Positions 34,988-54,883 of a stretch of DNA of 64,000 nucleotides are shown here, piece by piece (position 1 is the first letter of the stretch; each line of letters begins with the position of its first letter). Origin of the DNA: Clostridium paraputrificum (GTDB taxonomy: Bacteria; Bacillota; Clostridia; Clostridiales; Clostridiaceae); contig NZ_UAWH01000005.1 in assembly GCF_900447045.1 (NCBI RefSeq), positions 124,001 through 188,000 on the forward strand, given 5' to 3'. Both the position numbers and the translations under genes were made by a program. The notes beneath the pieces are model-generated. The model saw only the letters and a program-made list of their open reading frames with translations, had not been told where the DNA came from and ran no database searches.

Positions 34988-37717
34988 ATGTATAAAAGAA
35001 ATAAAAAACTAGCGTGTACTATAGCTTTAACAATAATTATGTCAATTAATACTGTATATAATTCTGGAATTATTGTATATGCTAGTCAAAATAATAATTT
35101 GTCTTTAGAATTTGCTATTGAAAAAAACATAAGAAATATAAATATAATATCTGATACAGAGATAACTGTACAAGATGCGAAAAAGTGGGCAAAAAATAAT
35201 GGGGCTACAGAAACTTTTGTGAATCTAGCTGATCTGTACTGGAAGTATTCAAAATCAAATGGAAATGTAAATCCAGCTTTGGCATATGTACAAGCTGCTC
35301 ACGAGACAGGATTTGGGAGATTTGGTGGGGTTTTAGATGAGTCGTATTATAATCCTTGCGGTATGAAGAATACTAATGCTGGAATCAATGATGATACTAT
35401 AAAAGAAGCTCATAAAAAATTCGATAGTTGGGAGCACGGAGTGCTAGCTCATTTAGATCATTTAGCATTATATGCTGGTTCAAATGGATATCCTAAGAAG
35501 AATATTGAGCAATCTTATGTTGAAGATGGATTAGATAATGAATCGACTTATGATCCAAGACATTTTGCCTATTTGGCTGGTAGTGCAAAAACTGCTTTAG
35601 ATCTTTCTGGAAGTTGGGCAGCTGGGAATTATGGCGAAAAATTAATCAGATTTTATAATGAGTTAATAAAAGTAAATGAACAAAGTAGAAGAGGCTGGTA
35701 CCATGATGATAACTATAATTGGTACTACTATAATGAAGATGGAGAGCTGCATAAAGGATGGCTTATATTACCAGCAGGAAAATACTATTTAGGTTCAGAT
35801 GGAGTAATGAAAAAAGGCTGGTATGAAGAAAGTGGTAAGAAGTATTATTTTAACGAATACGGAGCAGCAGTAGTAGGACAAACTATAGAGATAGATGGAA
35901 AAGAATATAAGTTCGATAAAGATGGTGTGCTAATAAAAAGTATTATTACAGGCTGGTATCATGATGATAACTATAATTGGTACTACTATAATGAAGATGG
36001 AGAGCTGCATAAAGGATGGCTTATATTACCAGAAGGGAAATACTATTTAGGTTCAGATGGAGTAATGAAAAAAGGCTGGTATGAAGAAAGTGGTAAGAAG
36101 TATTATTTTAATGAATACGGAGCAGCAGTAGTAGGACAAACTATAGAGATAGATGGAAAAGAATATAAGTTTGATAAAGATGGTGTGCTAATAAAAAGTA
36201 TTATTACAGGCTGGTATCATGATGATAACTATAATTGGTACTACTATAATGAAGATGGAGAGCTGCATAAAGGATGGCTTATATTACCAGAAGGGAAATA
36301 CTATTTAGGTTCAGATGGAGTAATGAAAAAAGGCTGGTATGAAGAAAGTGGTAAGAAGTATTATTTTAATGAATACGGAGCAGCAGTAGTAGGACAAACT
36401 ATAGAGATAGATGGAAAAGAATATAAGTTTGATAAAGATGGTGTGCTAATAAAAAGTATTATTACAGGCTGGTATCATGATGATAACTATAATTGGTACT
36501 ACTATAATGAAGATGGAGAGCTGCATAAAGGATGGCTTATATTACCAGAAGGGAAATACTATTTAGGTTCAGATGGAGTGATGAAAAAAGGCTGGTATGA
36601 AGAAAGTGGTAAGAAGTATTATTTTAACGAATACGGAGCAGCAGTAGTAGGACAAACTATAGAGATAGATGGAGAACAATATACTTTTGATAAAAATGGA
36701 GTTCTTCAAATAAGAGTAGGGTGGTTTCAAGATAGAGATAAATGGTACTATTACGATGAAAATGGAAAGCTTCATAAAGGATGGTTGACCCTATTGGAAG
36801 ATAAGTTTTACTTTGATGAAAATGGTGAGATGCAAACTTATTGGAAGCAGATACAGGGGAAATGGTATTATTTTGGGGCTGATGGAAAGCAGGTAAAAGG
36901 ATGGCTTAAATCTAACGATATACGATATTACTTTAAAGAAGACGGTAGTGCAGCAGTAGGGTGGAACAATATAGATGGATATGATTATTTCTTTTATGAA
37001 GGATGTAATATGGCTCAATTGGAGTTTGTAGGAAATACATATGTGGGTTTAAATGGCGTTGCAAAATATCCTGACAAAGGAGATAAATATAGAATTGTTA
37101 TAGATCCTGGTCATTATAATCAGGGAGATAAAGGAACAGTTAAGACTCATGATGGTATTACTTACGAAGAAGGTGTAATTAATATGCAGGTGGCAGAAAT
37201 TCTTAAAACTAAATTAGAGGAACAAGGATATGAAGTGTTGCTAACTAGAACTGCAAATGATTATGGCTTAAAAGATACATTAGAAAATAGAGTAGTATTG
37301 GCAAATAACAATAATGCAGATTTATTTATAAGTATACATCAAGATTCTTTTACTGACCCAAGTGCTAATGGAATGACAATATTTTATGATACGTATAGGC
37401 CTAATATAGATAATATAGGCGTTAAGGTGGATGCATCTGGAAACAAATATGATGAATCTCCTAGTAGAGCAGCTAAAATATCTAAAGATTTTGCGATAAA
37501 CCTTACTAAATCCTTACCTAATAGTTTAAATATTAGAAATAGAGGAGCTAAATATGCGAATTGGTATGTAACTAGAAATACTTTGATGCCTTCATTGCTT
37601 ATAGAATGTGGGTTTTTATCAAATCCAACAGAAGCAAAGAAAATATCAGATAAATCGCACCAAAGTAAGATGGCATCACTATTGGTAGAAAATATAAACA
37701 CTTTATTTAGAAAATGA
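34988..37717 (+). CDS. Secreted bifunctional autolysin with choline-binding-type repeats
   Basis: A 909-residue exported protein. In order: a signal peptide (about 1-33); a glucosaminidase-type domain (about 60-225) with the catalytic Glu in AAHETGFGR and YYNPCGMKN; aromatic GW/YY repeats (about 235-690) of the choline-binding/cell-wall-binding type; and a C-terminal zinc amidase (Amidase_3, about 700-905) with IDPGH, EEGVINMQ, ISIHQDSF and the catalytic Glu in LIECGFLSN. It should cut both glycan and stem peptide of peptidoglycan while anchored to the wall through its repeats. The repeat block includes four 258-bp tandem units. ATG 34988 follows TGGAGG by 7 nt. The adjacent LicD cluster suggests phosphocholine as the repeat ligand; this is inferred. 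Confidence 0.93.
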   Translation: MYKRNKKLACTIALTIIMSINTVYNSGIIVYASQNNNLSLEFAIEKNIRNINIISDTEITVQDAKKWAKNNGATETFVNLADLYWKYSKSNGNVNPALAYVQAAHETGFGRFGGVLDESYYNPCGMKNTNAGINDDTIKEAHKKFDSWEHGVLAHLDHLALYAGSNGYPKKNIEQSYVEDGLDNESTYDPRHFAYLAGSAKTALDLSGSWAAGNYGEKLIRFYNELIKVNEQSRRGWYHDDNYNWYYYNEDGELHKGWLILPAGKYYLGSDGVMKKGWYEESGKKYYFNEYGAAVVGQTIEIDGKEYKFDKDGVLIKSIITGWYHDDNYNWYYYNEDGELHKGWLILPEGKYYLGSDGVMKKGWYEESGKKYYFNEYGAAVVGQTIEIDGKEYKFDKDGVLIKSIITGWYHDDNYNWYYYNEDGELHKGWLILPEGKYYLGSDGVMKKGWYEESGKKYYFNEYGAAVVGQTIEIDGKEYKFDKDGVLIKSIITGWYHDDNYNWYYYNEDGELHKGWLILPEGKYYLGSDGVMKKGWYEESGKKYYFNEYGAAVVGQTIEIDGEQYTFDKNGVLQIRVGWFQDRDKWYYYDENGKLHKGWLTLLEDKFYFDENGEMQTYWKQIQGKWYYFGADGKQVKGWLKSNDIRYYFKEDGSAAVGWNNIDGYDYFFYEGCNMAQLEFVGNTYVGLNGVAKYPDKGDKYRIVIDPGHYNQGDKGTVKTHDGITYEEGVINMQVAEILKTKLEEQGYEVLLTRTANDYGLKDTLENRVVLANNNNADLFISIHQDSFTDPSANGMTIFYDTYRPNIDNIGVKVDASGNKYDESPSRAAKISKDFAINLTKSLPNSLNIRNRGAKYANWYVTRNTLMPSLLIECGFLSNPTEAKKISDKSHQSKMASLLVENINTLFRK
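35693..36669 (+). repeat. Four tandem 258-bp units inside the autolysin gene
   Basis: Units begin at GGCTGG at 35693, 35951, 36209 and 36467, exactly 258 bp (86 codons) apart. The first three are complete and nearly identical at the DNA level; the fourth diverges after about 200 bp. Each encodes several GW-type aromatic repeats (GWYHDDNYNWYYY...). The near identity indicates recent expansion and predicts copy-number variation between strains. Confidence 0.95.
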
Positions 37718-38153
37718 TAAAGTTATGTAGAATAAGATGTTACATTAAATTATTAGTGTGGCATTAGAGTGTAAAATAGTCTGCGTAAACTTCAGAAGAT
37801 AATGTATAATAAATTATCTATATGAGAAGGACGCAGACTATTTTACTTTCAAAAGAAGATATCAAAGTACTTATATAAGCAAATCTAAATATAAAAACAG
37901 CAGATTATGGTCAAAATGTTTTGAAAGATTTCTTTGGAGAAGTTCTTTTACAAAAAAATTCTATAAATACAAAAAATGAGGTTAATGCATAAATTGGAAA
38001 AGTAAATAATTCTAATAAAAAATATTACATAAATATGATGAATTCATTACAATAATGCATTTTTATTGTTTTTTTTAATCTAATATGATAACATTATAAT
38101 GTTACGAGGACAAAAGTTTTATGAAAGTATTATAAGGGCTTAGCGGAGGAAAT
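37718..38153. other. Gap with a decayed IS256-type transposase start
   Basis: No intact gene. From about 37821 the plus strand reads MRRTQTILLSKEDIKVL, then after a stop NIKTADYGQNVLKDFFGEVL, which resembles the N-terminus of mutator/IS256 transposases; the frame is then lost. A 15-bp perfect inverted repeat, TAAAATAGTCTGCGT at 37772-37786 and its complement at 37831-37845, flanks the start of the relic. The rest is AT-rich and holds the promoter region of the next gene. Confidence 0.55.
38090..38103. promoter_or_regulatory. 14-bp palindrome overlapping a -10 element
   Basis: AACATTATAATGTT is a perfect palindrome containing TATAAT (38095-38100), about 54 nt before the phosphosugar transferase start. 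It could be a repressor site on the promoter. Confidence 0.4.
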
Positions 38154-39512
38154 ATGAAACAGAAGCTATTAGGAATTAAGAGAACTGTGATGTTCTTAAC
38201 AACTTGTATGATATTATTAATGACTACATTAACATTTTATAGTGTATGGAATAATTATTATAGTAACTCTATTGTTTTACCATTTTATTACAAGGGCAAT
38301 ATATTAGTTGTTATTGTATATGCAATTCTTCTATATGTTTTTACTAAGATATATAGTGGATATAAAGTTGGAGTTTTAAAATTTTCAGAGTTGGTTTATT
38401 CTCAAATACTTTCATTACTATTTGTTAATGCAATTACGTATTTGCAAATAAGTTTAATTGGTAGAAGATTTTTAGATATTAGACCTATGTTATATATGAC
38501 ATTTTTTCAAGTTATAATTATTATTGGATGGGCATATTTAACGAATAAATTATATTTTTATATATATCCTCCTAGAAATACTGTGTTAGTATATGGAGAT
38601 AAGGAAGATTACGATGTATTAAAAAAGATTAATTTACATAAGGAAAAGTTTAATATATGCTCTATGATATCTATTTCTGAAGGGATTAAAAATATATTTG
38701 AAACTTTAAAAGACTGCGAAGCTGTGGTATTAAGTGGATTAGAATTGTTAGATAGAGATAAAATAGTTAAGTATTGCTATGATAGAAGTATAAGAGTATA
38801 TATAGTACCTAATATTCAAGATGTAATAATAAATAATAGCGATACTATACATTTATTTGATACTCCTATGTTGCTACTTAGAAACAGAGGTCTATCAATA
38901 GAGAATAGGTTTGCGAAACGAACTATAGATTTAATATTGTCTTTATTAGCTATAATAGTTACATCGCCAATAATGATTATAGTTGCATTGTTAATTAAAA
39001 TGTATGATGGAGGTCCAGCGTTATTTAAGCAAAAACGTTTAACAATAGATGGAAAGATATTTGATGTCTATAAATTTAGAAGTATGATTGTAGATGCAGA
39101 AAAAGATGGTGTTGCAAGATTAGCAAGTAAAAATGATAATAGAATAACACCTATTGGTAAGTTTATAAGAAAAGTTAGATTAGATGAACTTCCACAATTA
39201 TTAAATATATTAAAAGGCGATATGTCAATTGTTGGACCACGTCCAGAAAGACCAGAGATTGCAGAAGAATATGGCAAAGTAATGCCGGAATTCTCATACA
39301 GATTGAAAGTTAAGGCTGGTCTTACAGGATATGCTCAAATTTTAGGAAAATATAATACAACACCAAAAGATAAATTACTTTTAGATTTGATGTATATAGA
39401 AAAATATTCATTGTTTTTGGATTTTAAACTTATGCTTATGACTATAAAAATATTATTTATGTCAGAAAGTACAGAAGGTGTAGATGAAGGTAATATACTA
39501 CCAGAAAAGTAA
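38154..39512 (+). CDS. Long undecaprenyl-phosphate phosphosugar transferase (WbaP/CpsE type)
   Basis: A 452-residue polyprenyl glycosylphosphotransferase: five N-terminal membrane helices (to about residue 145), a Rossmann-like middle domain, a further hydrophobic segment (about 258-282) and a catalytic C-terminus with KFRSMIVDAE, LDELPQLLNILKGDMS and VGPRPERPE. It should load the first sugar phosphate (glucose- or galactose-type in relatives) onto undecaprenyl phosphate for the second polysaccharide. GGAGG precedes the ATG. A strong terminator follows, and the LicD operon has its own promoter, so this initiating enzyme is transcribed separately. Confidence 0.93.
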   Translation: MKQKLLGIKRTVMFLTTCMILLMTTLTFYSVWNNYYSNSIVLPFYYKGNILVVIVYAILLYVFTKIYSGYKVGVLKFSELVYSQILSLLFVNAITYLQISLIGRRFLDIRPMLYMTFFQVIIIIGWAYLTNKLYFYIYPPRNTVLVYGDKEDYDVLKKINLHKEKFNICSMISISEGIKNIFETLKDCEAVVLSGLELLDRDKIVKYCYDRSIRVYIVPNIQDVIINNSDTIHLFDTPMLLLRNRGLSIENRFAKRTIDLILSLLAIIVTSPIMIIVALLIKMYDGGPALFKQKRLTIDGKIFDVYKFRSMIVDAEKDGVARLASKNDNRITPIGKFIRKVRLDELPQLLNILKGDMSIVGPRPERPEIAEEYGKVMPEFSYRLKVKAGLTGYAQILGKYNTTPKDKLLLDLMYIEKYSLFLDFKLMLMTIKILFMSESTEGVDEGNILPEK

Positions 39513-39532
39513 TTGTGAATAGAGTTTTTGCT

Positions 39533-39560
39533 AAAAATACCTCTTTTAGAGGTATTTTTT
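39533..39560 (+). terminator. Terminator after the phosphosugar transferase
   Basis: 11-bp stem AAAAATACCTC / GAGGTATTTTT with a 5-nt loop, running straight into T residues. Confidence 0.9.
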
Positions 39561-39565
39561 GTAGA

Positions 39566-39621: not shown

Positions 39622-39657
39622 TATTTACAAGTGATATTGTTAAATTTGGGAGGAAAT

Positions 39658-40473
39658 ATGGTTAGTTATGATATTAGAAAACTTCAGCTTGTACAATTAG
39701 AAATGTTAAAGGATATAGATAGGATTTGTAAGGAGAATAATATACAATATTATATTCTTTATGGTACATTACTCGGTGCAATAAGACATGAGGGATTTAT
39801 TCCTTGGGATGATGATATCGATATAGGAATGTTACATAATGATTTTATAAAATTTAATAAATTATGTGAAAAGAAATTACCTGAAAAGTATTTTTTACAA
39901 AATGAAAAAACAGATAAAAATTTTCCTAGAATGTGGTCAAAAATTAGAATAAACAATACTTGTAATATGGAAAGAGAATATAGAAGATTAAAAGTTCATT
40001 ATGGAATAGATATGGATGTATTCGATATAATATATCTTTCAGATAATTTAGTATTTAGAAATATTCAAAAATCTTGTGCATATGTTTATAGATTGCTTAT
40101 GTTTGAAAAGGCACATAATGCTATTGATGATGAGTTTAAAAGAAGTAGAGATACTAAGATATACAAAATATTACCAGGGTTCTTAAAAAGTTGGTTGTTG
40201 AAGTTATCCAAAAAAATAACTTATTGTACTGCAAGCAAGAAAAGTAATTATGTAATGGATGTTAGTGCAATATTAATTATGAATAGTGATATATTTGAAA
40301 AAACTAAGATGTTAAAGTTTGAGGATGAGGAATTTTTTGCTCCATATAAATCAGAAAAGTTTTTAGAAGAATATTATGGGGACTATATGACATTGCCACC
40401 TGAAAATGAAAGAACTGGGCATGGGGATAGGATTGTAGATTTTGAAAATTCTTATGAAAAATATACGCTATAG
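39658..40473 (+). CDS. licD: LicD-family phosphocholine (phosphodiester) transferase
   Basis: A 271-residue cytoplasmic LicD protein. The family signature is clear in the first 60 residues: ILYGTLLGAIRHEG followed by IPWDDDIDIGM, whose acidic cluster binds metal and nucleotide. LicD enzymes transfer phosphocholine from CDP-choline to a sugar of a surface glycan. The start is ATG 39658, just after GGGAGG; an in-frame codon at 39631 precedes that site. It is first in an operon with polymerase, flippase, two glycosyltransferases and a sulfotransferase-like gene. The CDP-choline supply genes are at 51398-54883. Related LicD proteins can transfer other phospho-substituents (fukutin-like), so choline is supported mainly by those genes. 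Confidence 0.92.
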   Translation: MVSYDIRKLQLVQLEMLKDIDRICKENNIQYYILYGTLLGAIRHEGFIPWDDDIDIGMLHNDFIKFNKLCEKKLPEKYFLQNEKTDKNFPRMWSKIRINNTCNMEREYRRLKVHYGIDMDVFDIIYLSDNLVFRNIQKSCAYVYRLLMFEKAHNAIDDEFKRSRDTKIYKILPGFLKSWLLKLSKKITYCTASKKSNYVMDVSAILIMNSDIFEKTKMLKFEDEEFFAPYKSEKFLEEYYGDYMTLPPENERTGHGDRIVDFENSYEKYTL

Positions 40474-40486: not shown

Positions 40487-41902
40487 ATGAAAAGATTTTT
40501 AAATGTATTATTTGATAGAAATAAGTATAGAGAAGTGTTTATTTTTATAACTATTTTATTTGCAATTAGTTATTTTACTCCATTGAGTAGTATACTAAAT
40601 TTAATATTGCTACTTTGGGGAGCAATTATAATAATTAAGGATTTACTTGTAAAAAGAATTATTTTTAAATCGAAGAAGTTTATTGCGTTAATATTTTTTA
40701 TTATTGCTTATTTTATTACTATAATTTCTAATAGGTATATGGGATTATTCGAGAATATAAAAATATTAGCACTTACTTCTTTACAGTTCTTTATATTGTT
40801 TGCCTTTGATGATGAGGATGATAAGTGCGATATATATAATCATATTATTAGATTTAATAATATAATAATCAAGGTTACTTTTATTACTTCATTAATTTCG
40901 TTAATAATATATCTATTAGGAATTAATTTTGAATTTAAAAATTTTGTGATAGGTGTAGAAAATGGTATGCTTAATGGTGTTTATACAGGAGCTAATACTG
41001 GAGGTCCTTTAGCTGCAATATCAATTGTGGCTTCTATTTTAATTATGGAATTGAAAAAGTCGAGTGAGATGAATAAATTTTATATAATAAATATCGTAAT
41101 ACAATTAATATTTATTTATATGACAAATTCTCGTGCAACCCTTTATTGTATTATAATTTTTGGAATCATGTTTACTATATTTTATTTTAAAGATAAAAAG
41201 GATAAAGTTATTGCAGGTTCTGGAGTTTTTGGTATTTATTTTTTATCAAAGGTTGTAAATAACATTCTATATTATATATATATATGTATTAATAATATTA
41301 TTATTATTGCTAAATTTGCATTTAATAAAGCTAGGTATTACATATTGTTAACACTTGGAAAAAATGTAAATAATATAGATAATAAACCGTTAGATATGAC
41401 AGGGAGTGCAGGAAATGTTTCAGAAGTAGTTGAAAAAGAGATATCTATGGGATTTTTAAATGGGAGAGCACAGTTATGGGGTTGTGGTATGCAAATATTA
41501 AAAGATAATTTTTGGTTTGGGGTTGGATCTAGAAATGTTTCAGAAGTAGCTTTAAACTATGCTTCTATTAGTGATTTGCCAGGTATTTTAGGTGGAGGAA
41601 TGCACAATATAGTTATTCAAGTTTTGGTATCTAATGGTGTTATAGGCTTTATAGCAATAGCAACTTTTGCAGTAATTTGTTTATGGGAGTATTTTAAATA
41701 TTTTTTTGATATAAAGTTAAGAACTCAAGATTCAAAAATAGTATTAATAGTATTTTTAATATTGATTATGTTATTAATTAATAATATGGCTGAGGCTAAT
41801 ATACTATATTCTGCTTCATATATGGCAACAGTGTTTTGGACATATTTGGGATTTGGGTTGTTTATAATTAGTAAAGAAAAGAGAGAGGGGAAAAATGATT
41901 AG
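40487..41902 (+). CDS. Wzy-type polysaccharide polymerase
   Basis: A 471-residue membrane protein with about 11-12 helices and a long loop between about 280 and 370 that contains NGRAQLWGCG, GVGSRNVSE and GGGMHNIVIQ, the pattern of the O-antigen ligase/polymerase superfamily. It is expected to polymerise the second glycan. It shares no obvious similarity by eye with the polymerase at 27987. It overlaps the next gene by 8 bases. Confidence 0.85.
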   Translation: MKRFLNVLFDRNKYREVFIFITILFAISYFTPLSSILNLILLLWGAIIIIKDLLVKRIIFKSKKFIALIFFIIAYFITIISNRYMGLFENIKILALTSLQFFILFAFDDEDDKCDIYNHIIRFNNIIIKVTFITSLISLIIYLLGINFEFKNFVIGVENGMLNGVYTGANTGGPLAAISIVASILIMELKKSSEMNKFYIINIVIQLIFIYMTNSRATLYCIIIFGIMFTIFYFKDKKDKVIAGSGVFGIYFLSKVVNNILYYIYICINNIIIIAKFAFNKARYYILLTLGKNVNNIDNKPLDMTGSAGNVSEVVEKEISMGFLNGRAQLWGCGMQILKDNFWFGVGSRNVSEVALNYASISDLPGILGGGMHNIVIQVLVSNGVIGFIAIATFAVICLWEYFKYFFDIKLRTQDSKIVLIVFLILIMLLINNMAEANILYSASYMATVFWTYLGFGLFIISKEKREGKND

Positions 41903-42917
41903 TGTAGTAATACCCTGCTATAATTTAGAGAGGTATATAGAGAAAACTATTAAATCAATAGTAAATCAAAGCTATAAAGAATGGGAGATTATTATAGTTG
42001 ATGATGGATCTACTGATAAGTCATATAATGTTTGCAGTAATTATGTAAAGATGTATCCCAATAAAGTTAAATTAATTAGTCAGGAAAATCAAGGGGTAAG
42101 TGTAGCTAGAAATACAGGCTTGATTGAATCTAAAGGAGAATATATTTGTTTTTTGGATGGGGATGATTTTTTAGAGTTAGATTGTTTTAGAAGAGTTATA
42201 GATAAATTTGAAGCAAATAGTGATTTAGATATATGTGCATACGGTTATCAAGATATTGATGAATTAGGTAATATATCAGGAGAATATAATAAAACACGAG
42301 TTTTCCCAGATAAGCCATTAAGGGGAGAGGAGGCATTTTTTTTAAAATGCAATAGGGAAATATGGATTTGTATGGGATCGTGTGTGTTTAGAACCTCATT
42401 AATAAAAGATAATAATATATATTTTAGAAGAGGTTATAGATATGGAGAAGATATGAATTTTATTAATGCCTGCTTAAGTTATGCCAATGAGATTGAGTAT
42501 ATAAATGAAAATTATATAAATTGTCTTGCAAGAGTAGGTTCCGCAACTAGAAGTGGTATAAATTCAGGATATATACATGCATCTCAATTAAATAGAATAT
42601 TATATAATCAAATTAGTGAAAGAACTGATTTGTCTAAAGAAGATAAAGAAAAAATGCTTTTGGCATGCAATATTGATTATATAAATGTTACAACAGCTGC
42701 CGCAAAAAATATAGTTGAAAATATTGGTGGGTTTTCATTTTTAAAAGCAAGAAGGTTATATAAAGAATTTGATATAATACCAGAAAAAATTAAATTGAAT
42801 GAATTAAAACCGTATATATCTAAATATAAAGAATTAGAGTGGAGTTTGTTTTACAATTTTAAAGAATTGTTTTTTTGTAGTGTAAAAATTTATAAGAAAT
42901 TAAGAGGTGAAAAATAA
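41895..42917 (+). CDS. Family 2 glycosyltransferase
   Basis: A 340-residue GT-A enzyme: ISVVIPCYNLERYI at the N-terminus, VDDGSTDKS near 40 and FLDGDDFLE near 90 as the metal site, then a C-terminal helical region. It is cytoplasmic or peripheral. GAGGGG lies before the ATG, inside the end of the polymerase gene, implying translational coupling. The donor is unknown. Confidence 0.9.
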   Translation: MISVVIPCYNLERYIEKTIKSIVNQSYKEWEIIIVDDGSTDKSYNVCSNYVKMYPNKVKLISQENQGVSVARNTGLIESKGEYICFLDGDDFLELDCFRRVIDKFEANSDLDICAYGYQDIDELGNISGEYNKTRVFPDKPLRGEEAFFLKCNREIWICMGSCVFRTSLIKDNNIYFRRGYRYGEDMNFINACLSYANEIEYINENYINCLARVGSATRSGINSGYIHASQLNRILYNQISERTDLSKEDKEKMLLACNIDYINVTTAAAKNIVENIGGFSFLKARRLYKEFDIIPEKIKLNELKPYISKYKELEWSLFYNFKELFFCSVKIYKKLRGEK

Positions 42918-44401
42918 TGGCCACATCTGTAAAGAGAAATGCCATGGCAAAAATGTCATTAAATATTCTTAATATAGTATTACCATTAGTTACAGGGCCA
43001 TATGTAGCCAGGGTATTGGATAGTAATTTATTTGGAGAGTACAATAAAGCATTTTCAATTTTATCCTGGTTTTTACCATTTGCATCATTTGGGATATATA
43101 ATTATGGGATTCGTATAATTAGCCAAAATAAGAATGATAAGGAAAAGACGAGAAAAATTTTCACCCAATTATTTATTATGGGATGCATTAGTACTATTAT
43201 TGTATTTTTTATATATTTACTTTTTGTTTTATTTAAACCTAATAAAGTTAACAACTTAATTTATATTGTTCTTTCTATTCAAATTATAGCTAATATTTTT
43301 ATGGTTGAGTGGATGAATGAAGCTTTTGAAAGTTATGGATTCATTTTATTCAAAACTATGATTGTTAGGTTGTTTAATGTATTTAGTATTTTTATTTTTA
43401 TAAGGAAAAGTGATGATATAGTATCTTATGCTATGATAACATCAATAGTAGTATTGCTAAATAATATATTAAGTTATTTTCATATAAAGAAGCATGTGTC
43501 TTTTGAAAAGATAAATATTGGTGAATTAAAAAATCTAATAAAACCTTTATGTATTATGCTACTTTTAGCGAATGCAAGTATGTTTTATACATACTTAGAT
43601 AAGTTATATCTTAGCATTTTTTCTAAAGGTATTTATGTTACATATTATACTTTTTCTCAAGCAATTACTGGACTTGTAATAAATGTTATTTCGTCTTTAG
43701 TTATTGTTACAATACCAAGATTATCGAGATATTTATCTGAAAAAGATGATGAAGAGTACATAAAGTTGCTTTATTCATCATCGCGTATATTTTTTATGAT
43801 TGGTATTCCAATGTGTATTGGAATAAGTGTACTTGGTAAGGAAATAATGTTGTTATATGCAGGAGAAGAGTATCTAGGAGCTGGGTTAACACTAAGCTTA
43901 TTTTCTTTAAGATATATTATGGGGATGTGTGATTTAACCTTAGCTAATCAAGTGATTTTTGTACATGGTGAAGAGAAGCGACTAGCAAAATTGTATTTTA
44001 TTGGTGGAATCACTAATTTAATATTAAATAGTTTACTTGTAATGTTAAATTTATTGAGTCCGGAGTTATTAATAATAACAACATTTATTTCAGAAGTTTT
44101 ATTAATAATATTAATGAATAAATGTATAAGGAAAAATATAAATAAAAGAATTCATGTTATGAATAAATATACGGTTAAGTATTTGTTAACTTCTTTTATG
44201 TTCTTTTTTATAAGTGGAGTGCTATCAAAAGTGTTAAATATACAATATGTAATAGATATTAGATTTATTATTAACATAGCTATAATAATTATTACATGTG
44301 TAACTTTTTATATTAGTGTTTTATTTATTACAAAAGATTGTGCTTTTTTCGAAATAGTGGATATTGTGATGAGGAGATTTAAATTTAATAGAAAGGAATA
44401 G
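42917..44401 (+). CDS. Wzx-type polysaccharide flippase
   Basis: A 494-residue MOP-superfamily transporter with about 14 helices. The N-terminus (KMSLNILNIVLPLVTGPYVA) and FGEYNKAFSIL are typical of Wzx/PST exporters. It should flip the lipid-linked repeat unit of the second glycan. The ATG overlaps the preceding stop codon by one base (TAATG), indicating translational coupling. Confidence 0.92.
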   Translation: MATSVKRNAMAKMSLNILNIVLPLVTGPYVARVLDSNLFGEYNKAFSILSWFLPFASFGIYNYGIRIISQNKNDKEKTRKIFTQLFIMGCISTIIVFFIYLLFVLFKPNKVNNLIYIVLSIQIIANIFMVEWMNEAFESYGFILFKTMIVRLFNVFSIFIFIRKSDDIVSYAMITSIVVLLNNILSYFHIKKHVSFEKINIGELKNLIKPLCIMLLLANASMFYTYLDKLYLSIFSKGIYVTYYTFSQAITGLVINVISSLVIVTIPRLSRYLSEKDDEEYIKLLYSSSRIFFMIGIPMCIGISVLGKEIMLLYAGEEYLGAGLTLSLFSLRYIMGMCDLTLANQVIFVHGEEKRLAKLYFIGGITNLILNSLLVMLNLLSPELLIITTFISEVLLIILMNKCIRKNINKRIHVMNKYTVKYLLTSFMFFFISGVLSKVLNIQYVIDIRFIINIAIIIITCVTFYISVLFITKDCAFFEIVDIVMRRFKFNRKE

Positions 44402-44407: not shown

Positions 44408-45529
44408 ATGAAAAAGGTTCTGTTTACAGCGAAAGTCGACAGTCATATTGCTAATTTTCATATTCCATATATTAAATGGTTTAAAGATATGGGATATGAA
44501 GTGCATGTAGCTAGTAATGGTGATAGTTGCATTCCATATGTAGATGTAAAATATAATTTGAATTTTGAACGTAATCCTTTAAGTTTTAAAAACTTAAAGG
44601 TTTATTTTAAACTAAAACAAATAATTAATGATAATAAATATGAAATAATTCATTGTCATACACCAATAGGGGGGGCTCTTACTAGACTAGCATCTAAGAA
44701 AGCAAGAAAAGATGGCTGCATCGTTATATATACGGCCCATGGGTTCCATTTTCTTAATGGTGGAGGAAAGATAAATTGGCTGATATTTTATCCAATAGAG
44801 AAATTTTTGGCAAAGTATACAGATTGTTTGATTACAATTAATCAGGAAGATTACAACTTGGCTGTTAAAAAGAATTTTAAATCTGGAGAAATAAAGCTTG
44901 TTAATGGAGTTGGAGTTGATCTTGACAAATATACTATTTCTAATGAAAAAGAAAAGAAAATTTTAAGAGAGAAGAATTTTCTATCTAATAATGATTTTGT
45001 ATTAATATATGTAGCTGAGTTAAATTCGAATAAAAATCAAGGTATGGCAATAGATGCAATAGATACATTAAGATATAAAATAGGAAATATAAAATTACTT
45101 TTGGTTGGAGAAGGTATTTTAAAAGAAGAGTATAAAGAAAAAATAACTTCTTTGGGCCTACAAAACAATATTTATATGTTAGGTCAAAGAAATGATGTTA
45201 ATGAGCTTTTAAAGTTATCAGATGTTGCTATTTCAACTTCTAGAAGAGAAGGACTTCCACGTAATATAATGGAAGCAATGGCTACAGGATTACCAATTAT
45301 AGTAACAAATTCGAGAGGTAATAGAGACCTTGTAAGTGATAAACTAAATGGATATGTAATCGGGATTGATGAAAAAAATGAATTGGCTGAAAAAATAAAT
45401 ATACTTTATGAGGATATTAATTTAAGAAAGTCACTAGGACAGAAAAGCTTAGAACTTGTTGATAAGTATTCTCTAAAGGTCGTATTTAATGACATGGTAG
45501 CTATTTATAAAAGATATATTAAATCTTAG
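44408..45529 (+). CDS. Family 4 glycosyltransferase
   Basis: A 373-residue GT-B retaining glycosyltransferase. IHCHTPIGGALTRLA, YTAHGFHFLNGG, VAELNSNKNQGMAIDA and the donor-site REGLPRNIMEAMATGLP with the E-x7-E spacing are visible. This type is common in capsule operons (CapM/EpsD-like). It starts 6 nt after the flippase stop. The sugar is unknown. Confidence 0.9.
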   Translation: MKKVLFTAKVDSHIANFHIPYIKWFKDMGYEVHVASNGDSCIPYVDVKYNLNFERNPLSFKNLKVYFKLKQIINDNKYEIIHCHTPIGGALTRLASKKARKDGCIVIYTAHGFHFLNGGGKINWLIFYPIEKFLAKYTDCLITINQEDYNLAVKKNFKSGEIKLVNGVGVDLDKYTISNEKEKKILREKNFLSNNDFVLIYVAELNSNKNQGMAIDAIDTLRYKIGNIKLLLVGEGILKEEYKEKITSLGLQNNIYMLGQRNDVNELLKLSDVAISTSRREGLPRNIMEAMATGLPIIVTNSRGNRDLVSDKLNGYVIGIDEKNELAEKINILYEDINLRKSLGQKSLELVDKYSLKVVFNDMVAIYKRYIKS

Positions 45530-45549: not shown

Positions 45550-46617
45550 ATGAAAAAGGTTGCGGTTACAAGTTATTGTGGTACTGGTTCTTCAGCTGTA
45601 ATAGACTTATTATCTGAGTATAGCAGTTGTACTACAAATGGGCTTATAAGATACGAACATATACCGTTCTATACACCAAATGGAATATTTGATTTAGAAG
45701 ATAAGCTTATTAATGGAGTGGATATTCATAGAACTGACGAGGCTATAAAATCATTTAAAAAGGAGATGAATAAGCTGTCTAAAAATAATTTTGGATGGTT
45801 TGGTTCTTATGAAAAAATGTATGGGAAAGAATTTAATACATTGGTGGATGAGTTTTTAAGTGAATTAAATTGTTTTAATATAAAAGGAGAATGGTATGGA
45901 CAATACAAAGGGGTGAGGTTTTCTTTAATTAAAGTAATATTACAACTTGGCGCAAAGATTATTCAAAATAGAAAAATTCATAAATGGGGGAGACAATATA
46001 TTATATCTGGAAATAGAAAAATGGTTGTTTCTTTTCCATCTGAAGATGAATTCTATAGAGCAGCTAAAAAGTTTGTGAAAGGTTATTTAGATATGATTGG
46101 TCAAAATTTAGACAAGAATATAATTTATGATCATCTTGTACTACCACATAATGCATATAGAATACCAAACTATTTTGATGATGATTTTAGATTAATAATT
46201 GTAGATAGGGATGTTAGGGATATGTATGCATTGTCTACTTATGTATGGCCTAAGATACATTCGTCAGCACCATTTCCTAAGGAGTGTAATGAGTTTATAG
46301 AATTTTGGAGAAGAATGAAAAGCTGTGAAAAATTTATAGATGATAAGCGTATTTTTAGGTTAAGATTTGAAGATCTAGTCTACAATTATGAAGATACAGT
46401 AAGAAAGATAGAAGAATTTATTGGCTTGGAAGCTAATGATCATGTAAATAAGAAAAAGTTATTTGATCCTGAAAAATCAATTAAAAATACGCAAAATTTT
46501 ACTATTACCGATAATCTAAAAAAAGACGCTAAATTAATAGAAGATAAGTTGCCAGAATTTGTTTATGAATTTCCTTATGAAATAAGAACTTCTATTGAAG
46601 AAGCCTTTGATGATTAA
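45550..46617 (+). CDS. Sulfotransferase-like protein
   Basis: A 355-residue protein with features of the PAPS-dependent sulfotransferase fold: a 5'-phosphosulfate loop-like YCGTGSSAVIDLL at residues 9-21, and a later strand-helix LIIVDRDVRDMYALS (about 216-230) at the place of the 3'-phosphate-binding Arg/Ser motif, followed by RLRFEDLVYNYEDT, the usual C-terminal segment. It is the last gene of the LicD operon and would sulfate the glycan or a linked group. No PAPS synthesis genes are in the window. GGAGG precedes the ATG. The fold call is good; the activity is inferred. Confidence 0.75.
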   Translation: MKKVAVTSYCGTGSSAVIDLLSEYSSCTTNGLIRYEHIPFYTPNGIFDLEDKLINGVDIHRTDEAIKSFKKEMNKLSKNNFGWFGSYEKMYGKEFNTLVDEFLSELNCFNIKGEWYGQYKGVRFSLIKVILQLGAKIIQNRKIHKWGRQYIISGNRKMVVSFPSEDEFYRAAKKFVKGYLDMIGQNLDKNIIYDHLVLPHNAYRIPNYFDDDFRLIIVDRDVRDMYALSTYVWPKIHSSAPFPKECNEFIEFWRRMKSCEKFIDDKRIFRLRFEDLVYNYEDTVRKIEEFIGLEANDHVNKKKLFDPEKSIKNTQNFTITDNLKKDAKLIEDKLPEFVYEFPYEIRTSIEEAFDD

Positions 46618-46660
46618 AATAGATTAAATTTTAGAGCAAGGTTTTAGAATTTATAAAATA

Positions 46661-46739
46661 TAGTTTATTTAAATTGAGGTGTGATATAAATAGTTTATTA
46701 ATTAATTCTTTCTATGCTATATTACGCCTCAATAAACTA
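46661..46739. repeat. Imperfect inverted repeat after the second glycan operon
   Basis: Arms TAGTTTATT...GAGGTGTGATATA and TATATTACGCCTC...AATAAACTA pair with two G-U-type changes and one 6-nt bulge. There is no T-run, so it is not a standard terminator; it may be the end of a mobile element or a structured 3' end of the operon RNA. Confidence 0.5.
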
Positions 46740-46772
46740 AAATATATTTGTTATTTAAACACTTGAAGGTAC

Positions 46773-47673
46773 TTAAATTGCATCTATTTGATCTAAGTGT
46801 AACTCAAATAATTCTTCTGGAGTTTTATATTTTAGTATCCTTTTTGGTGGTGGATTTGTCCAATCCTCTATAAAAGCAATATCGTCATAGGGATAATCAG
46901 ATATATGTTTTTCCTTTGGGATGAAACGACGTATAAATCCATTATGACGCTCATTAGTACCTTTCTTGAAAGAAGAAGGTGGATGAGTAAGGTATATTTT
47001 TGTATTAGCTTAAGTTTCAGTTGGAGACAAATCAGCAAATTCAGAGCAATTGTAACTAGTTATACTCTCAAAAAACTTTACTAAATTTCTCGCCAAATAA
47101 GTTACGGACTCTGTTAAGTGCATCCGTAACTGCAGGAGCAGTTTTTGCTATAGCTTTTAAAACCATAGAATATCTAGTTTTACGCTCTACTATAGTAAGA
47201 AGTACATTATAATACTTAGATTTTTCACCAATAACAGTATCTATCTCTCAATGACCAAATTTTGTACGGTTATCTATATCTATTGGACGTTGAGATATGC
47301 TAGTACCAAGCTTTTTCTTATGCTTCTTTACTCTAGCCAGTTTTGTATTTCTACGCAGTTTCATTGGTAAATCTGTATTTTTTACATCCATAAATCCAAG
47401 ATCTATATAGTTGTATAGTGTCTTGGTGCAAACCATTTGAGAGCGATTAAACCTACCGGTAGCGATAGCTTCCCCAACACAAGCATCGGGTGACAATGAA
47501 TTGTTTTTGGTTTTATCTATAGTGTAGTTAATAAAATCACTACATTCTAAGAGTTTGAAAGTACGGAAAGAATTTGAACGATGCTTTCTATATACAGCTT
47601 CGTCAGTATCGGCAAGGTAAACTTCAACATGCTTTCCTTGTTTTATTTGAGTAGTTGTACCACGACGTATTTC
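46773..47673 (-). pseudogene. Second IS30-family transposase remnant
   Basis: Joined minus-strand frames read EIRRGTTTQIKQGKHVEVYLAD, RPIDIDNRTKFGH then a stop where Trp is expected before EIDTVIGEKSKYY, and near the C-terminus KKGTNERHNGFIRRFIPK and KTPEELFELHLD, all IS30-transposase motifs. The N-terminal HTH is missing, and an in-frame TGA plus several frameshifts inactivate it. Only 47248-47496 remains as one open piece. It differs in sequence from the remnant at 34029, so the two are separate elements of one family, both on the minus strand. Confidence 0.85.
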
Positions 47674-47735
47674 ATTTTACAATGGAACAAGAAAAAGAAA
47701 GTAGTTAACAGTGAAAATAATGAATTGTGAATGAT

Positions 47736-47757
47736 GAAACTCAGCTAGCTGAGTTTC
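47736..47757. repeat. 22-bp perfect palindrome
   Basis: GAAACTCAGCT followed immediately by its complement, then TAAAAATT. It could fold as a hairpin terminator for leftward or rightward RNA, although the loop must open several pairs. Confidence 0.5.
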
Positions 47758-47765
47758 TAAAAATT

Positions 47766-47798
47766 AAAAACCAAATTGGCTTAGCCAATTTGGTTTTT
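47766..47798. terminator. Bidirectional terminator after brnQ
   Basis: 15-bp stem AAAAACCAAATTGGC / GCCAATTTGGTTTTT with a TTA loop, with A- and T-rich flanks. It serves brnQ on the minus strand. Confidence 0.85.
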
Positions 47799-47844
47799 GT
47801 AATTCCTTTGGAATTGCTTCTTGAATTGTTCACTATTCATTCTA

Positions 47845-51221: not shown

Positions 51222-51322
51222 TAGAAACACCCCTTTCTAAACTTAAATATAATAACTATATTATAGGATTTACCAATATAACTGTCAATGTAGTTGAGTT
51301 TTACGAGATTTTGGAAAAAACC

Positions 51323-51351
51323 TTGAAATGTAATAAGAAATATATTATCAT
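51323..51351 (+). promoter_or_regulatory. Promoter of the choline operon
   Basis: TTGAAA, 17 nt, TATCAT. The predicted transcription start is near 51358, 40 nt before the first gene. Confidence 0.55.
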
Positions 51352-51358
51352 AAAAGCA

Positions 51359-51375
51359 TGTTCAATAAATGAACA
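51359..51375. promoter_or_regulatory. Operator-like palindrome at the choline operon start
   Basis: TGTTCA-ATAAA-TGAACA, a perfect 6-bp inverted repeat with a 5-nt spacer, placed at the predicted transcription start. A repressor bound here would block the promoter; the HTH domain of the first gene product is a candidate. Confidence 0.5.
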
Positions 51376-51397
51376 AAAAGTAAAGGGGATGGGATAA

Positions 51398-53248
51398 ATG
51401 GATAAATTTAATGTATTAAAACTTATATTAGAGGATTCTTGTATAAGTCAAAGAAAAATATCAGAGTTATTAAACATATCATTAGGAAAAGTAAATTCAA
51501 TATTAAAAGAATCTATTCAAAATAGAGAAATTGATATAATTAAAAATGGCAATAAAGTAATTTATAGAATTACAGACTTAGGAAAAGAGTGTTTGGAAGA
51601 AAACTTGAAGAATATAAAAGAAAATCAATTAGAAATTGATATAGATAAGGTAAATGTAGTTACTGAAGCAGTTATATTAGCTGCTGGTAAAAGAAAGGAT
51701 TTTGATATTCCAGTAGCTGCGCTTAGCTTAGAAGATACAACTATAATACAAAGAAATATAAAGATTTTAAGAGATAATGGAATAAGAAAAATTGTTGTTA
51801 TTGCTGGTTATAATAAAGAGATGCTATATAATCTATTAAAAGAAGAAAAAGATGTAATTCTAGTAGATAATGATAGATATTCTTGGACAGGCAATATGCA
51901 ATCATTAGCTTTAGCTAAAAATATTATAGAAAATGATTTTATACTAATTGAAGGAGATTTAATATTTGAAGAAAGTGTAATTTCTAAGCTAATAAGTAAT
52001 GATAAAAGAAATACTATCATAATAACAAATGAAAGTGGCTCAGGTGATGAAGGTTTTGTTCAACTAAAGGATGGATATTTATTTAAATTAGCTAAAGATA
52101 TTCATCAATTTAATAGAATTGATGGAGAAATGATAGGTATATCTAAAATATCAATTAACTTATTTAAATTAATGTTACAAGAGTTTGAGTCTAATGTAAA
52201 TCCATATTTAAATTATGATTATATGTTATTAGATGTTTCAAGAGATTATAAAGTGCCATGTTTAAAAATTGATGATCTTACTTGGGGAGAAATTGATACA
52301 GAAGATCAATATGGAAAGGTTGTGAATAATATCTATCCAAAGATAATGAGAAAAGAGAAAAATAGTAAATATGACTATGTTAGAGATATAGCTTCAGAAG
52401 TATTTCAGGTAGATAGAGATAAAATAAAAGAAGTAAGTGTTGCAGGTGGACTTACTAATAATAATTATAAAGTAAATGTTGATGGAGATTATTATATTGT
52501 GCGAGTGCCAGGAGTTGGTACAGAAAAAATGATTTCTAGAAAATATGAAATGATTAATTCTAAATTGGCTTCAGAACAAGGAATTAATGTAGATATTGCA
52601 TATTTTAATGAAGAGTCAGGTATAAAGATATCGAAGTTTATAGAAGATGCAGAAACTTTAACAAATAGAAGTAGTAAAAAACAAGAGAATATGAAGCTAG
52701 TTTCTCAAATAATAAAACAATTGCATGAATCAAGTATAGTATTTGAAAATGAATTTAATGTATTTGAAGAAATAGAGTTATATGAAGATATAATAAATCA
52801 GTTAAATGGTAAGTTTTTTGATGATTATATAATTGTAAAAGAAAAAGTTATGAATTTAAAGGCGTTAATAAAAGAATATGGTGCTAGATATGTTCCATCT
52901 CATAATGATACTCTACCAGATAATTTTGTAAAAGATACAAATGGAAGATTATATTTAATTGATTGGGAATATAGCGGTATTAATGAAGAAATGTGGGATT
53001 TGGCTGCTCATACTTTAGAAGCAGAATTTTCAGAAGAAGAGGAAAGAGAGTTCTTAAGATATTACTTTGGAAGAGAAGCTACAAGAGAAGAAAGAGTAAG
53101 ATTATTAATAAATAAAATATGTCAAGATTTTCTATGGGCAATATGGACATTAATTAAAGAAGCTGAAGGTGAGGATTTTGGAACTTATGGCATAGATAGG
53201 TATAATAGAGCTAAGATAAACTTAAATAATTTATTTAATATTTTATAG
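51398..53248 (+). CDS. HTH-nucleotidyltransferase-choline kinase fusion (LicC/LicA type)
   Basis: A 616-residue three-part protein. Residues about 1-70 form a winged helix (QRKISELLNISLGKVNSIL, a clear HTH, then a basic wing). Residues about 85-310 form a nucleotidyltransferase fold starting AVILAAGKRKDFDIPVAAL, in which the usual GxGTR and PK residues are lost, so this domain may be inactive. Residues about 335-616 form a choline kinase/APH domain with AGGLTNNNYKV, the catalytic SHNDTLPDN and metal-binding IDWEYSG. It should phosphorylate choline and may sense the pathway through the HTH part. AAGGGG precedes the ATG. licB follows by 12 nt and licC after that. Confidence 0.88.
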   Translation: MDKFNVLKLILEDSCISQRKISELLNISLGKVNSILKESIQNREIDIIKNGNKVIYRITDLGKECLEENLKNIKENQLEIDIDKVNVVTEAVILAAGKRKDFDIPVAALSLEDTTIIQRNIKILRDNGIRKIVVIAGYNKEMLYNLLKEEKDVILVDNDRYSWTGNMQSLALAKNIIENDFILIEGDLIFEESVISKLISNDKRNTIIITNESGSGDEGFVQLKDGYLFKLAKDIHQFNRIDGEMIGISKISINLFKLMLQEFESNVNPYLNYDYMLLDVSRDYKVPCLKIDDLTWGEIDTEDQYGKVVNNIYPKIMRKEKNSKYDYVRDIASEVFQVDRDKIKEVSVAGGLTNNNYKVNVDGDYYIVRVPGVGTEKMISRKYEMINSKLASEQGINVDIAYFNEESGIKISKFIEDAETLTNRSSKKQENMKLVSQIIKQLHESSIVFENEFNVFEEIELYEDIINQLNGKFFDDYIIVKEKVMNLKALIKEYGARYVPSHNDTLPDNFVKDTNGRLYLIDWEYSGINEEMWDLAAHTLEAEFSEEEEREFLRYYFGREATREERVRLLINKICQDFLWAIWTLIKEAEGEDFGTYGIDRYNRAKINLNNLFNIL

Positions 53249-53260
53249 AAGGGGGATAAA

Positions 53261-54187
53261 GTGGTGAAAAAAATTAATTCTGGAGTTAGAAATGGTATGG
53301 TTTCGGCTGTTATGTGGGGAGCTGATACCGTAATGATGGGAATAGTGTTGTCTATGGCTCCTTTTATAGAGAATGAAGAAGCAATATTTTTAGCACCAAT
53401 AGTAAGTGCGTTTTTTCATGATTTATTTTCTTCAATATGGATCTTTATATATTTATGGACAAAGAAGAAGACTAATGTTTTGTTTAAATCAATAAAAACC
53501 AAAAGTGCTAGATATGTGGCATTGGGTGCAATATTAGGAGGCCCTGTTGGAATGACAGGATATCTTTTATCAATAAAGTATTTAGGACCTTCATATACTG
53601 CATCAATATCATCCTTTTATCCAGCAGTTGGAGCGATTCTAGCATCGATAATATTAAAAGAAAAAGTTAAGAAAAGAGCTTGGTTAGGTCTTTTAGTAAG
53701 TATATCAGGAATAGTTGCATTAGGGTATAGTAAGGGTAGCGATATAGGAAATTTATTAGGTTTTGTGTTTATAGCTATGTGTGTAATTGGTTGGGGAACG
53801 GAAGCAGTAGTATGTTCTTATGGAATGAAAGATGATGAAATAGATTCAGAGTGTTCGTTACAAGTAAGACAGTTTATTTCAGCAATATGTTATGGAATTA
53901 TAATAATTCCTATATTTAGAGGAATAAAATTAGCAACTATTACAATATCTAATCCAGTAATAATGGTTATACTTATTACAGCTTGCTTTGGAACTATATC
54001 ATATTTATGTTATTATAGTGCTATATACAAAATAGGAGCTACAAAAGCAATGGGAATAAATATAACATATTTTGTTTGGGCAATAATATTAGAAACTATT
54101 TTTTTAGGAACCCCATTATCTTTTAAAACTATTTTATTAGGTACAGCAGTTATGTTTGGGTCATTTTTAGTAGCTAAAGAAGATTAG
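53261..54187 (+). CDS. licB: Choline permease, DMT superfamily
   Basis: A 308-residue membrane protein with about 10 helices in two EamA-like halves. The N-terminus (GMVSAVMWGADTVMMG) and LGAILGGPVGMTGYLLSIKYLG resemble LicB choline transporters of Haemophilus and Streptococcus. It lies between the choline kinase fusion and licC, which fixes the substrate call. The start is GTG 53261 or GTG 53264 after AAGGGGGA. Confidence 0.9.
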   Translation: MVKKINSGVRNGMVSAVMWGADTVMMGIVLSMAPFIENEEAIFLAPIVSAFFHDLFSSIWIFIYLWTKKKTNVLFKSIKTKSARYVALGAILGGPVGMTGYLLSIKYLGPSYTASISSFYPAVGAILASIILKEKVKKRAWLGLLVSISGIVALGYSKGSDIGNLLGFVFIAMCVIGWGTEAVVCSYGMKDDEIDSECSLQVRQFISAICYGIIIIPIFRGIKLATITISNPVIMVILITACFGTISYLCYYSAIYKIGATKAMGINITYFVWAIILETIFLGTPLSFKTILLGTAVMFGSFLVAKED

Positions 54188-54199
54188 AAGGAGGATATT

Positions 54200-54883
54200 A
54201 TGAGAGCAATATTATTAGCAGCGGGAATGGGAACAAGATTGAGACCGCTAACATTAGAAACACCAAAATCATTAACAATTGTAAATAATGAACCTTTAAT
54301 TGAAAGGCAAATTAGATTTTTAAAAGAATGTGGAATTAATGAGATTGTTGTTGTAACAGGATATTTAAAAGAAAAATTTGAATATTTAATTGATAAGTAT
54401 GGAGTGGAATTGGTAAATAATGATAAGTATGATGTGTATAATAATATATATACAATGTATTTAGTAAAAGATTATTTATCAGATAGTTATGTTATAGATG
54501 CAGATGTATATATAAATAAGAACTTTTTTATTCAAGAACCTAAAAGTTCATTATATTTTTCAGCTTATAGAGAGAAGTTCTTTAATGAGTGGGAAATACA
54601 GTTTAATGATGAGAAATATGTTGAAAAAATATCTGTTGTAAATGAAGGAAGCGGCTATATATTATCAGGAGTTTCATATTGGAAAAAAGAAGATTCTAGA
54701 ATAATTGTAGCAATGTTAGAAAAAGCAATTAATGAAGGTGGATTTGATAAATTATATTGGGATGATATAGTAAGAGAAAATGTTGATAATCTTAATTTGA
54801 AAATTGAAATGCTTGATAGTAGTGATATATATGAAATTGATTCTTTAGAAGATTTACAAAATGTAAAAGCAATAGTTGAATAA
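54200..54883 (+). CDS. licC: CTP:phosphocholine cytidylyltransferase
   Basis: A 227-residue nucleotidyltransferase with an intact signature: ILLAAGMGTRLRPLT at residues 4-18 and TPKSL with the catalytic Lys, then VIDADVYI as the metal site near 97. It makes CDP-choline for LicD. GGAGG precedes the ATG. It is last in the choline operon, before a strong terminator. Its intact active site contrasts with the degenerate domain in the fusion protein two genes upstream. Confidence 0.93.
   Translation: MRAILLAAGMGTRLRPLTLETPKSLTIVNNEPLIERQIRFLKECGINEIVVVTGYLKEKFEYLIDKYGVELVNNDKYDVYNNIYTMYLVKDYLSDSYVIDADVYINKNFFIQEPKSSLYFSAYREKFFNEWEIQFNDEKYVEKISVVNEGSGYILSGVSYWKKEDSRIIVAMLEKAINEGGFDKLYWDDIVRENVDNLNLKIEMLDSSDIYEIDSLEDLQNVKAIVE

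Follow-up and report, generated by a model that had tools for sequence, protein, structure and literature searches.

The 64,000-nt window analysed here, a stretch of the 3.62-Mb genome of Clostridium paraputrificum, carries genes for choline uptake and activation (licCA, licB, and licC), a polymer operon that includes a LicD-family transferase, and, next to that operon, a two-enzyme autolysin with choline-binding-type repeats. These genes probably constitute a make-and-bind phosphocholine system, in which the lic genes decorate a polymer and the repeats of the autolysin dock on the tag. The observations behind this reading are the gene content and homology of the region, the likeness of its flippase to TacF, the co-occurrence of LicCA with the repeats, the synteny with relatives, and the domain pattern of the related autolysins.

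As to the mechanism, we infer the enzyme activities, the structure of the polymer, its attachment to the wall, and the binding of choline as follows. Choline would be imported by LicB, phosphorylated by the kinase domain of LicCA, and turned into CDP-choline by LicC, after which LicD would transfer phosphocholine to a lipid-linked repeat unit whose synthesis starts with the polyprenyl-phosphate sugar-1-phosphate transferase (PGT) at 38154. The decorated unit would be exported by the TacF-like flippase and polymerised by Wzy, and the polymer would then be attached to the wall, possibly by a LytR-CpsA-Psr (LCP) protein. The secreted autolysin, with its glucosaminidase and amidase, would dock on the phosphocholine via its central repeats, which include six hairpins with two Trp residues each.

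An earlier note on this DNA, made from the sequence alone, had named licB, a choline kinase domain, licC, licD, a Wzx/Wzy operon, and the autolysin, and the list of open reading frames (ORFs), together with Pfam and NCBIfam scans, located every one of them where the note had placed it (Table 1). It had also called the system self-contained; the set of named parts is complete, but brnQ, galU, and trpS, which follow the polymer operon, split it into two gene groups, with licCA, licB, and licC forming the second. The polymer operon comprises, in this order, the genes for PGT, LicD, Wzy, a GT2 enzyme, the TacF-like flippase, a GT4 enzyme, and a sulfotransferase-like protein, so that LicD, taken in the earlier note for the operon head, stands second, behind PGT. 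The autolysin does adjoin the polymer genes as described there, and its proximity to licD exceeds chance, since PF19127 matches in the genome (14 at E<=0.001) are confined to the autolysin ORF, and this ORF and the single-copy licD sit 1,914 bp apart; the distance from licD to licCA is 10,925 bp.

The autolysin and its repeats

The autolysin starts with an N-terminus that reads as signal-like, followed by a glucosaminidase domain (residues 87–227), repeat hairpins from residue 237, and an amidase_3 domain (residues 704–904). A profile search of the repeats against PF01473 and PF19127, proposed with the earlier note, yielded both families (E 8.1e-32 and E 4.6e-55, respectively), along with PF19085 (E 1.2e-7), all above cut-off. 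Pfam finds in this ORF only the glucosaminidase, the choline-binding repeats, and the amidase, with no toxin catalytic domain. The amidase is of the Amidase_3 family (PF01520) and not of the LytA type, the catalytic domain of LytA being an Amidase_2.

By pattern, the array holds about 21 hairpins, and six of them have both Trp residues of the choline cage: the hairpin that opens each of the four 86-aa units, and two more at residues 579 and 618. Each of these six is followed, again by pattern, by a Tyr-bearing hairpin. In the canonical choline site, one hairpin supplies two Trp residues and the following hairpin a Tyr, and a Met also takes part (PMC5137146; this and the other papers given by PMC number are cited from excerpts). 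Choline binding at about six sites of the autolysin is plausible. The earlier description of the repeats as being of the choline-binding type thus holds at the level of the families, but the array itself is mixed.

Choline uptake and activation

The assignments of licB and licC are borne out by the solved homologues 7b0k and 1jyk. The match of LicC to the pneumococcal enzyme spans residues 2–225 of 227, and both the G-T-R loop and the PK signature are present. The choline kinase domain is the C-terminal part of a fusion protein, LicCA, in which it is recognised both by PF01633 (E 7.7e-20, matching the second half of the ORF) and, with a nine-sequence profile, by choline kinase 4r77 (E 1.8e-74). 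The winged helix at the start of LicCA corresponds to Pfam HTH_24, and the cytidylyltransferase-like domain between them is closer to 6pd1/6pd2 (E 2.2e-40), which we take to be the aminoethylphosphonate enzyme PntC of Treponema denticola, than to LicC 1jyk (E 1.1e-13).

A scan of genome contigs that used LicCA alone as query gave no relatives; an alignment-based scan did, and the best 80 of its 549 loci, not an exhaustive set, were fetched. Since 39 of the 80 loci hold less than 21 kb, counts of neighbouring genes are lower bounds. Among these 80 relatives, 63 continue at the N-terminus with an open extension of 70 residues or more, the PK signature is missing from the fused domain in all 80, and the S/T-R loop is missing in 79, the sole pattern match (L051) seeming to be out of register. 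Separate LicC-like proteins near LicCA (n=56) keep the S/T-R loop in 54 cases, by a somewhat broader pattern, and PK in 54. Because the fused domains lack these residues and the separate proteins keep them, the comparison suggests that cytidylyl transfer is performed by the separate LicC. The window itself shows both states, with a fused domain that lacks the usual loop residues and an intact LicC. That the fused domain is dead is retained only as a possibility, as the LicCA fusion of T. denticola reportedly makes CDP-choline. An AlphaFold2 model of the fusion (nine sequences) had a mean pLDDT of 59.8 and was not used, and a literature search on fused winged-helix choline kinases turned up nothing relevant.

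The TacF-like flippase

The earlier note had set a Wzx/Wzy route in the Clostridium beside the pneumococcal system, a contrast that falls away, since the Wzx in question is a homologue of TacF. With 189 of 484 aligned residues identical (39%) to this teichoic acid flippase, which checks for phosphocholine, the polymer route resembles the pneumococcal one. TacF (9xzn) is the sole PDB match of the protein at E<=10, and for the second Wzx of the window (at 26661) a search at E<=1 gave no PDB match. With the residue numbering chosen to fit all seven residues named in PMC13385700, the basic residues named for phosphocholine, R230 and R333 of TacF, correspond to K229 and R332 of the window flippase, and Q249 and R269 are retained as Q248 and R268.

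TacF-like flippases (E<=1e-10, more than 350 residues) occur in at least 18 of the 80 fetched lic loci. In the best copy of each of these 18 loci, Arg is found at position 269 in every case and Gln at 249 in 17, whereas Arg at 333 is limited to L055 and L065 (Clostridium cadaveris), the others having Tyr (14), His (1), or Leu (1). In the genus, a search at E<=1e-100, a cut-off too strict for more distant relatives, returned the window's own copy only.

Co-occurrence of LicCA, LicD, and repeats

In a sample of 68 genomes of the genus, own genome included, full LicCA (E<1e-100) and PF19127 occur together in 27, LicCA only in two (G006 and G062), repeats only in seven, and neither in 32 (Fisher p 2e-10; with the own genome left out, 26/2/7/32 and p 4e-10), although the genomes are related and not independent, so that these p-values overstate the evidence. 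A LicD match accompanies LicCA in all 29 genomes that have it, and LicD without LicCA is found in 12. Among these 41 LicD-positive genomes, repeats are present in 27 of the 29 with LicCA, compared to two of the 12 without it. In a family sample (n=116), the corresponding counts are 11 with both, six with LicCA only, four with repeats only, and 95 with neither, including one genome (G110) in which LicCA is split by a stop. When the six genomes listed as belonging to the own genus are left out (those not so listed may hold others), the counts become 7/5/4/94 (p 7e-6).

Domain pattern of the related autolysin

Searched with the glucosaminidase domain of the autolysin, 40 of the 68 genus genomes gave a match at E<=1e-20. 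Apart from the own genome these are 39, of which 23 have LicCA and 16 do not, and from each of them the region surrounding its best match was retrieved; the LicCA genomes G006, G014, G015, G039, and G054, with no glucosaminidase match, lie outside this comparison. In 22 of the 23 genomes with LicCA, a glucosaminidase ORF bears repeat hairpins, three or more of which contain two Trp residues. Among the 16 without LicCA there was no two-Trp hairpin, with at most two hairpins of any kind. Pfam, run on ten of the 22 repeat-bearing proteins, recognised choline-binding repeats in each of them; in all 16 autolysins of genomes without LicCA it found no choline-binding family, the domains present being immunoglobulin (Ig)-like Big_7 in 14 (12 above cut-off), SH3_3 in one, and the catalytic domains alone in one. 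The exception with LicCA is G062, where the protein is of the SH3 type and PF19127 matches nothing in the genome. In two of the genomes that have repeats only (G008 and G064), this autolysin carries Ig-like or SH3 domains, the repeats being located in other proteins. Glucosaminidase and amidase share one ORF in 21 of the 23 genomes with LicCA and in 10 of the 16 without it, three of the six remaining ORFs ending at a contig edge. In those ten ORFs the amidase is C-terminal, as in the window, in six and internal in four.

A tree was built from 42 glucosaminidase domains, representing the 39 genomes, the window, C. cadaveris, and SUG470. On this tree, two changes are enough to account for the repeat-bearing state (shuffled mean 13.6), a number too small for formal testing. 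Among the proteins from genomes without LicCA stands a group (99/96) made up of the window, C. cadaveris, and SUG470 proteins, apart from a group of the other 22 (98/96). As the tree shows just two changes, the tracking of LicCA by the domain pattern is suggestive. No published report of such a pattern turned up, but no literature search was aimed directly at it.

Tentatively, we can speculate that a single autolysin family is retained across clostridia while its non-catalytic, wall-binding part changes along with the wall chemistry, with choline-binding repeats where phosphocholine is made and Ig-like or SH3 domains where it is not, that the cassette of autolysin, PGT, LicD, and TacF travels while the choline operon is native, and that the fused domain of LicCA may be a choline-metabolite sensor for the winged helix rather than an enzyme. 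The exchange of the wall-binding part is weakened by the single change forced on well-supported branches and by the differing domain order in some proteins of genomes without LicCA.

Synteny and origin

Most of the module has stayed together in C. cadaveris and in one other clostridium. The order in C. cadaveris is galE-GT4-autolysin-...-PGT-...-licD-wzy-GT2-tacF-licCA-licCA-licB-...-licC, with identities to the window proteins of 85% (galE), 56% (GT4), 75% (PGT), 64% (licD), 55% (wzy), 49% (GT2), and 62% (tacF-like). Its autolysin has the same domain order and 53–57% identity outside the repeats. Within 13 kb, L055 has autolysin-...-PGT (74%)-wzy (25%)-tacF-like (62%)-licCA-licB-licC; no licD is found at this cluster, and two are present in the genome. 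In L061, licCA-licB-...-tacF-like is followed by two repeat proteins, an amidase and a glucosaminidase, immediately 5' of licD. LCP genes are also present in the clusters of L055 and L143.

The C. cadaveris cluster contains two copies of licCA and, between licB and licC (L065:13084-16732), genes resembling an Aminotransferase V, a thiamine-pyrophosphate enzyme, and a PEP-mutase/CTP-transferase. This arrangement suggests that C. cadaveris may make a phosphonate head group as well.

The window LicD has at most 45% identity over most of its length to other LicDs of the genus (48% to one short fragment). LicCA is 61% identical to that of G006, which is devoid of the winged helix, 55% to that of G014, and 46–47% to those of C. 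cadaveris. By these identities, the polymer and autolysin genes seem nearer to C. cadaveris, whereas the choline operon seems nearer to the own genus; for this reason a transfer of the polymer and autolysin genes may be inferred.

Other features of the window

Table 1. Genes and repeat of the proposed phosphocholine region, in window coordinates
Feature	Position	Strand	Basis and remarks
LytR-CpsA-Psr (LCP) protein	32021..32923	+	PF03816 E 2.8e-38
UDP-hexose 4-epimerase (GalE-like)	32963..33979	+	85% identity to its counterpart two genes upstream of the C. cadaveris autolysin
Two-enzyme autolysin	34985..37717	+	GTG start, ATG at 34988; PF01832, PF19127, PF01473, PF01520
258-bp tandem repeat	35692..36699	+	3.9 copies, 98% matches; encodes four-hairpin 86-aa units, one two-Trp hairpin each
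PGT (initiating enzyme)	38154..39512	+	PF02397 E 3.9e-65; TIGR03025 above cut-off
LicD-family phosphodiester transferase	39631..40473	+	PF04991 E 4e-34
Wzy-type polymerase/ligase	40487..41902	+	PF04932 E 4.6e-13
GT2 glycosyltransferase	41895..42917	+	PF00535 E 5.1e-36
TacF-like teichoic acid flippase	42917..44401	+	TacF 9xzn E 3.1e-102; Wzx of the earlier note
GT4 glycosyltransferase	44408..45529	+	PF00534 E 1e-37
Sulfotransferase-like protein	45550..46617	+	PF00685 E 9.8e-7; operon end
LicCA fusion, 616 aa	51398..53248	+	Winged helix-turn-helix / PntC-like cytidylyltransferase domain / choline kinase
LicB choline transporter	53261..54187	+	Solved LicB 7b0k E 3.3e-41
LicC CTP:phosphocholine cytidylyltransferase	54200..54883	+	Solved LicC 1jyk E 5.1e-69

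LicD is a candidate phosphocholine transferase, its only NCBIfam match being NF045866, under the cut-off of that family. The LCP protein encoded upstream of the autolysin may serve to attach the polymer to peptidoglycan. Sulfation of the polymer by the last protein of the operon, which has no PDB match at E<=0.1, is possible.

Two gaps with no ORF of at least 90 aa, 33980-34984 (1.0 kb) and 46618-47844 (1.2 kb), flank the autolysin and polymer genes. No Rfam family was found at gathering scores anywhere in the window, both gaps included, and the promoter-like matches in the window (150, with 136.6 expected from shuffles) offered nothing usable. Upstream, a separate exopolysaccharide cluster (16934-29273) encodes Wzz, an AAA ATPase, CpsB, and its own PGT, Wzx, and Wzy. 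Farther upstream (776-9163) lies the gene of a 2,795-aa protein with glycoamylase-like and GH94 domains, presumably of the cyclic beta-glucan synthase type.

Weighing of the alternatives

The pneumococcal make-and-bind logic proposed for this Clostridium gains from the co-occurrence, the synteny, the TacF-like flippase, and the domain pattern, but several observations speak against it. The repeats score nearer to toxin-type than to choline-binding proteins: their best PDB match is of the clostridial toxin type (8jhz, E 4.2e-71), and the best choline-binding protein, 2bib (E 4.9e-21), falls behind the toxin-type repeats, in the same order in a second search. The second cage Trp is missing in 15 of the 21 hairpins, which look like glucan- or toxin-type repeats, and, by a slightly different pattern, two-Trp hairpins make up 336 of 497 in the repeat ORFs of the 80 fetched lic loci. 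R15, R250, and T253 of TacF are replaced by N16, A249, and G252 in the window flippase, and neither donor nor acceptor of LicD can be read from its sequence. The genus includes exceptions of both kinds (seven genomes with repeats and no LicCA, two with LicCA and no repeats), and the kinship of the genomes inflates the p-values, as stated above. On the autolysin tree, the starred (well-supported) branches force only one change, and an independent-pair test of the domain pattern found two pairs on such branches, too few for significance. It is partly from these same observations (the toxin-type PDB matches, to which glucosyltransferase repeats can be added, the missing Trp residues, and the seven genomes with such repeats and no LicCA) that another reading draws, in which the polymer bears phosphocholine and the autolysin repeats bind a glycan in the manner of glucan or toxin repeats, with the adjacency being regulatory or inherited. 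We consider this unlikely, as the six two-Trp hairpins, each with a Tyr hairpin behind it, fit the canonical site (PMC5137146), the repeats follow LicCA even within the LicD-positive genomes, the autolysin domain pattern points the same way, and in two of the seven genomes with repeats only (G008 and G064) this autolysin has Ig-like or SH3 domains and no repeats.

That the product of LicD is a loose or capsular polysaccharide, and not the wall anchor of the autolysin, is rather unlikely, although the two-locus layout of Clostridium perfringens, whose second capsule locus has a 5' PGT, Wzy, Wzx, phosphocholine genes, and a 3' Wzg/CpsA homologue, is much like the window (PMC5964661), and a capsule with phosphocholine is indicated for Erysipelothrix by the title of a reference in PMC7174600. 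The flippase is TacF-like, LCP genes are nearby, and autolysin, PGT, and flippase share one cluster in two relatives; moreover, the two readings are compatible, since the anchor might itself be a phosphocholine-bearing capsule. It is very improbable that LicD and LicCA serve another head group, such as 2-aminoethylphosphonate, the tag then not being phosphocholine. The affinity of the fused domain to 6pd1/6pd2 and the aminotransferase, decarboxylase, and PEP-mutase group of C. cadaveris would fit such a tag, but the window also encodes LicB, a choline kinase, and a strong LicC orthologue, the fused domain is devoid of the usual nucleotide-loop residues, and no such phosphonate genes occur among the 30 window ORFs scanned, to which that search was confined. 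A make-and-bind phosphocholine system remains the reading that we favor.

Significance and comparison with known systems

The system belongs to a known kind; its reader combines two enzymes, and the domain swap suggested by the comparison can be tested. As LicCA genomes mostly have the repeats, and the related autolysin is free of them in the examined genomes without LicCA, there is now a genetic lead on the binding target of choline-binding-type repeats in clostridial wall enzymes. One repeat protein and one LicD in this genome also make for a simple system for deletion tests. A choline-binding protein, CspA, of Clostridium acetobutylicum NCIB 8052 was reportedly described in 1995, although literature searches did not find that work. 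Choline-binding repeats have been reported in Clostridiaceae (PMC5817068). The 2026 TacF paper states that functional information on the Clostridium homologues of TacF is lacking (PMC13385700), and the window supplies a context for them, with one such homologue in a licD operon near licCA, licB, and licC.

Phosphocholine polymers in Clostridium are already published: region B of C. perfringens combines phosphocholine genes with PGT, Wzy, and Wzx, likewise as a second polysaccharide locus, and its phosphocholine polysaccharide has been characterised, as cited there (PMC5964661). A choline-binding autolysin is not named in that excerpt, whereas here the licD operon stands beside one. With Streptococcus pneumoniae (PMC13385700, PMC12029793, PMC5137146), the window shares LicB, choline kinase, LicC, a LicD-family protein, a TacF-like flippase, and the choline-binding repeat families. 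It differs in having one LicD instead of LicD1 and LicD2, a kinase joined in one protein with a winged helix and a cytidylyltransferase-like domain, a single repeat protein with two catalytic domains and mixed repeats, and a flippase in which some TacF contacts are not kept. Pneumococcal CbpL also has its choline-binding module between two others, with canonical and non-canonical sites mixed as here; its flanks, however, are Excalibur and Ltp_Lipoprotein and no wall hydrolases (PMC5137146), while those of the window autolysin are hydrolases. Erysipelothrix rhusiopathiae is another Gram-positive species with surface phosphocholine and choline-binding proteins, SpaA and CbpB, which are described as surface antigens or in adhesion and not as a two-enzyme autolysin (PMC7174600). 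In T. denticola, a LicCA fusion makes both phosphocholine and CDP-choline (PMC8590670). Compared by description and not by sequence, the protein of the window differs in its winged helix and in the separate LicC of its operon, and the head group here probably goes to a glycan and not to phosphatidylcholine.

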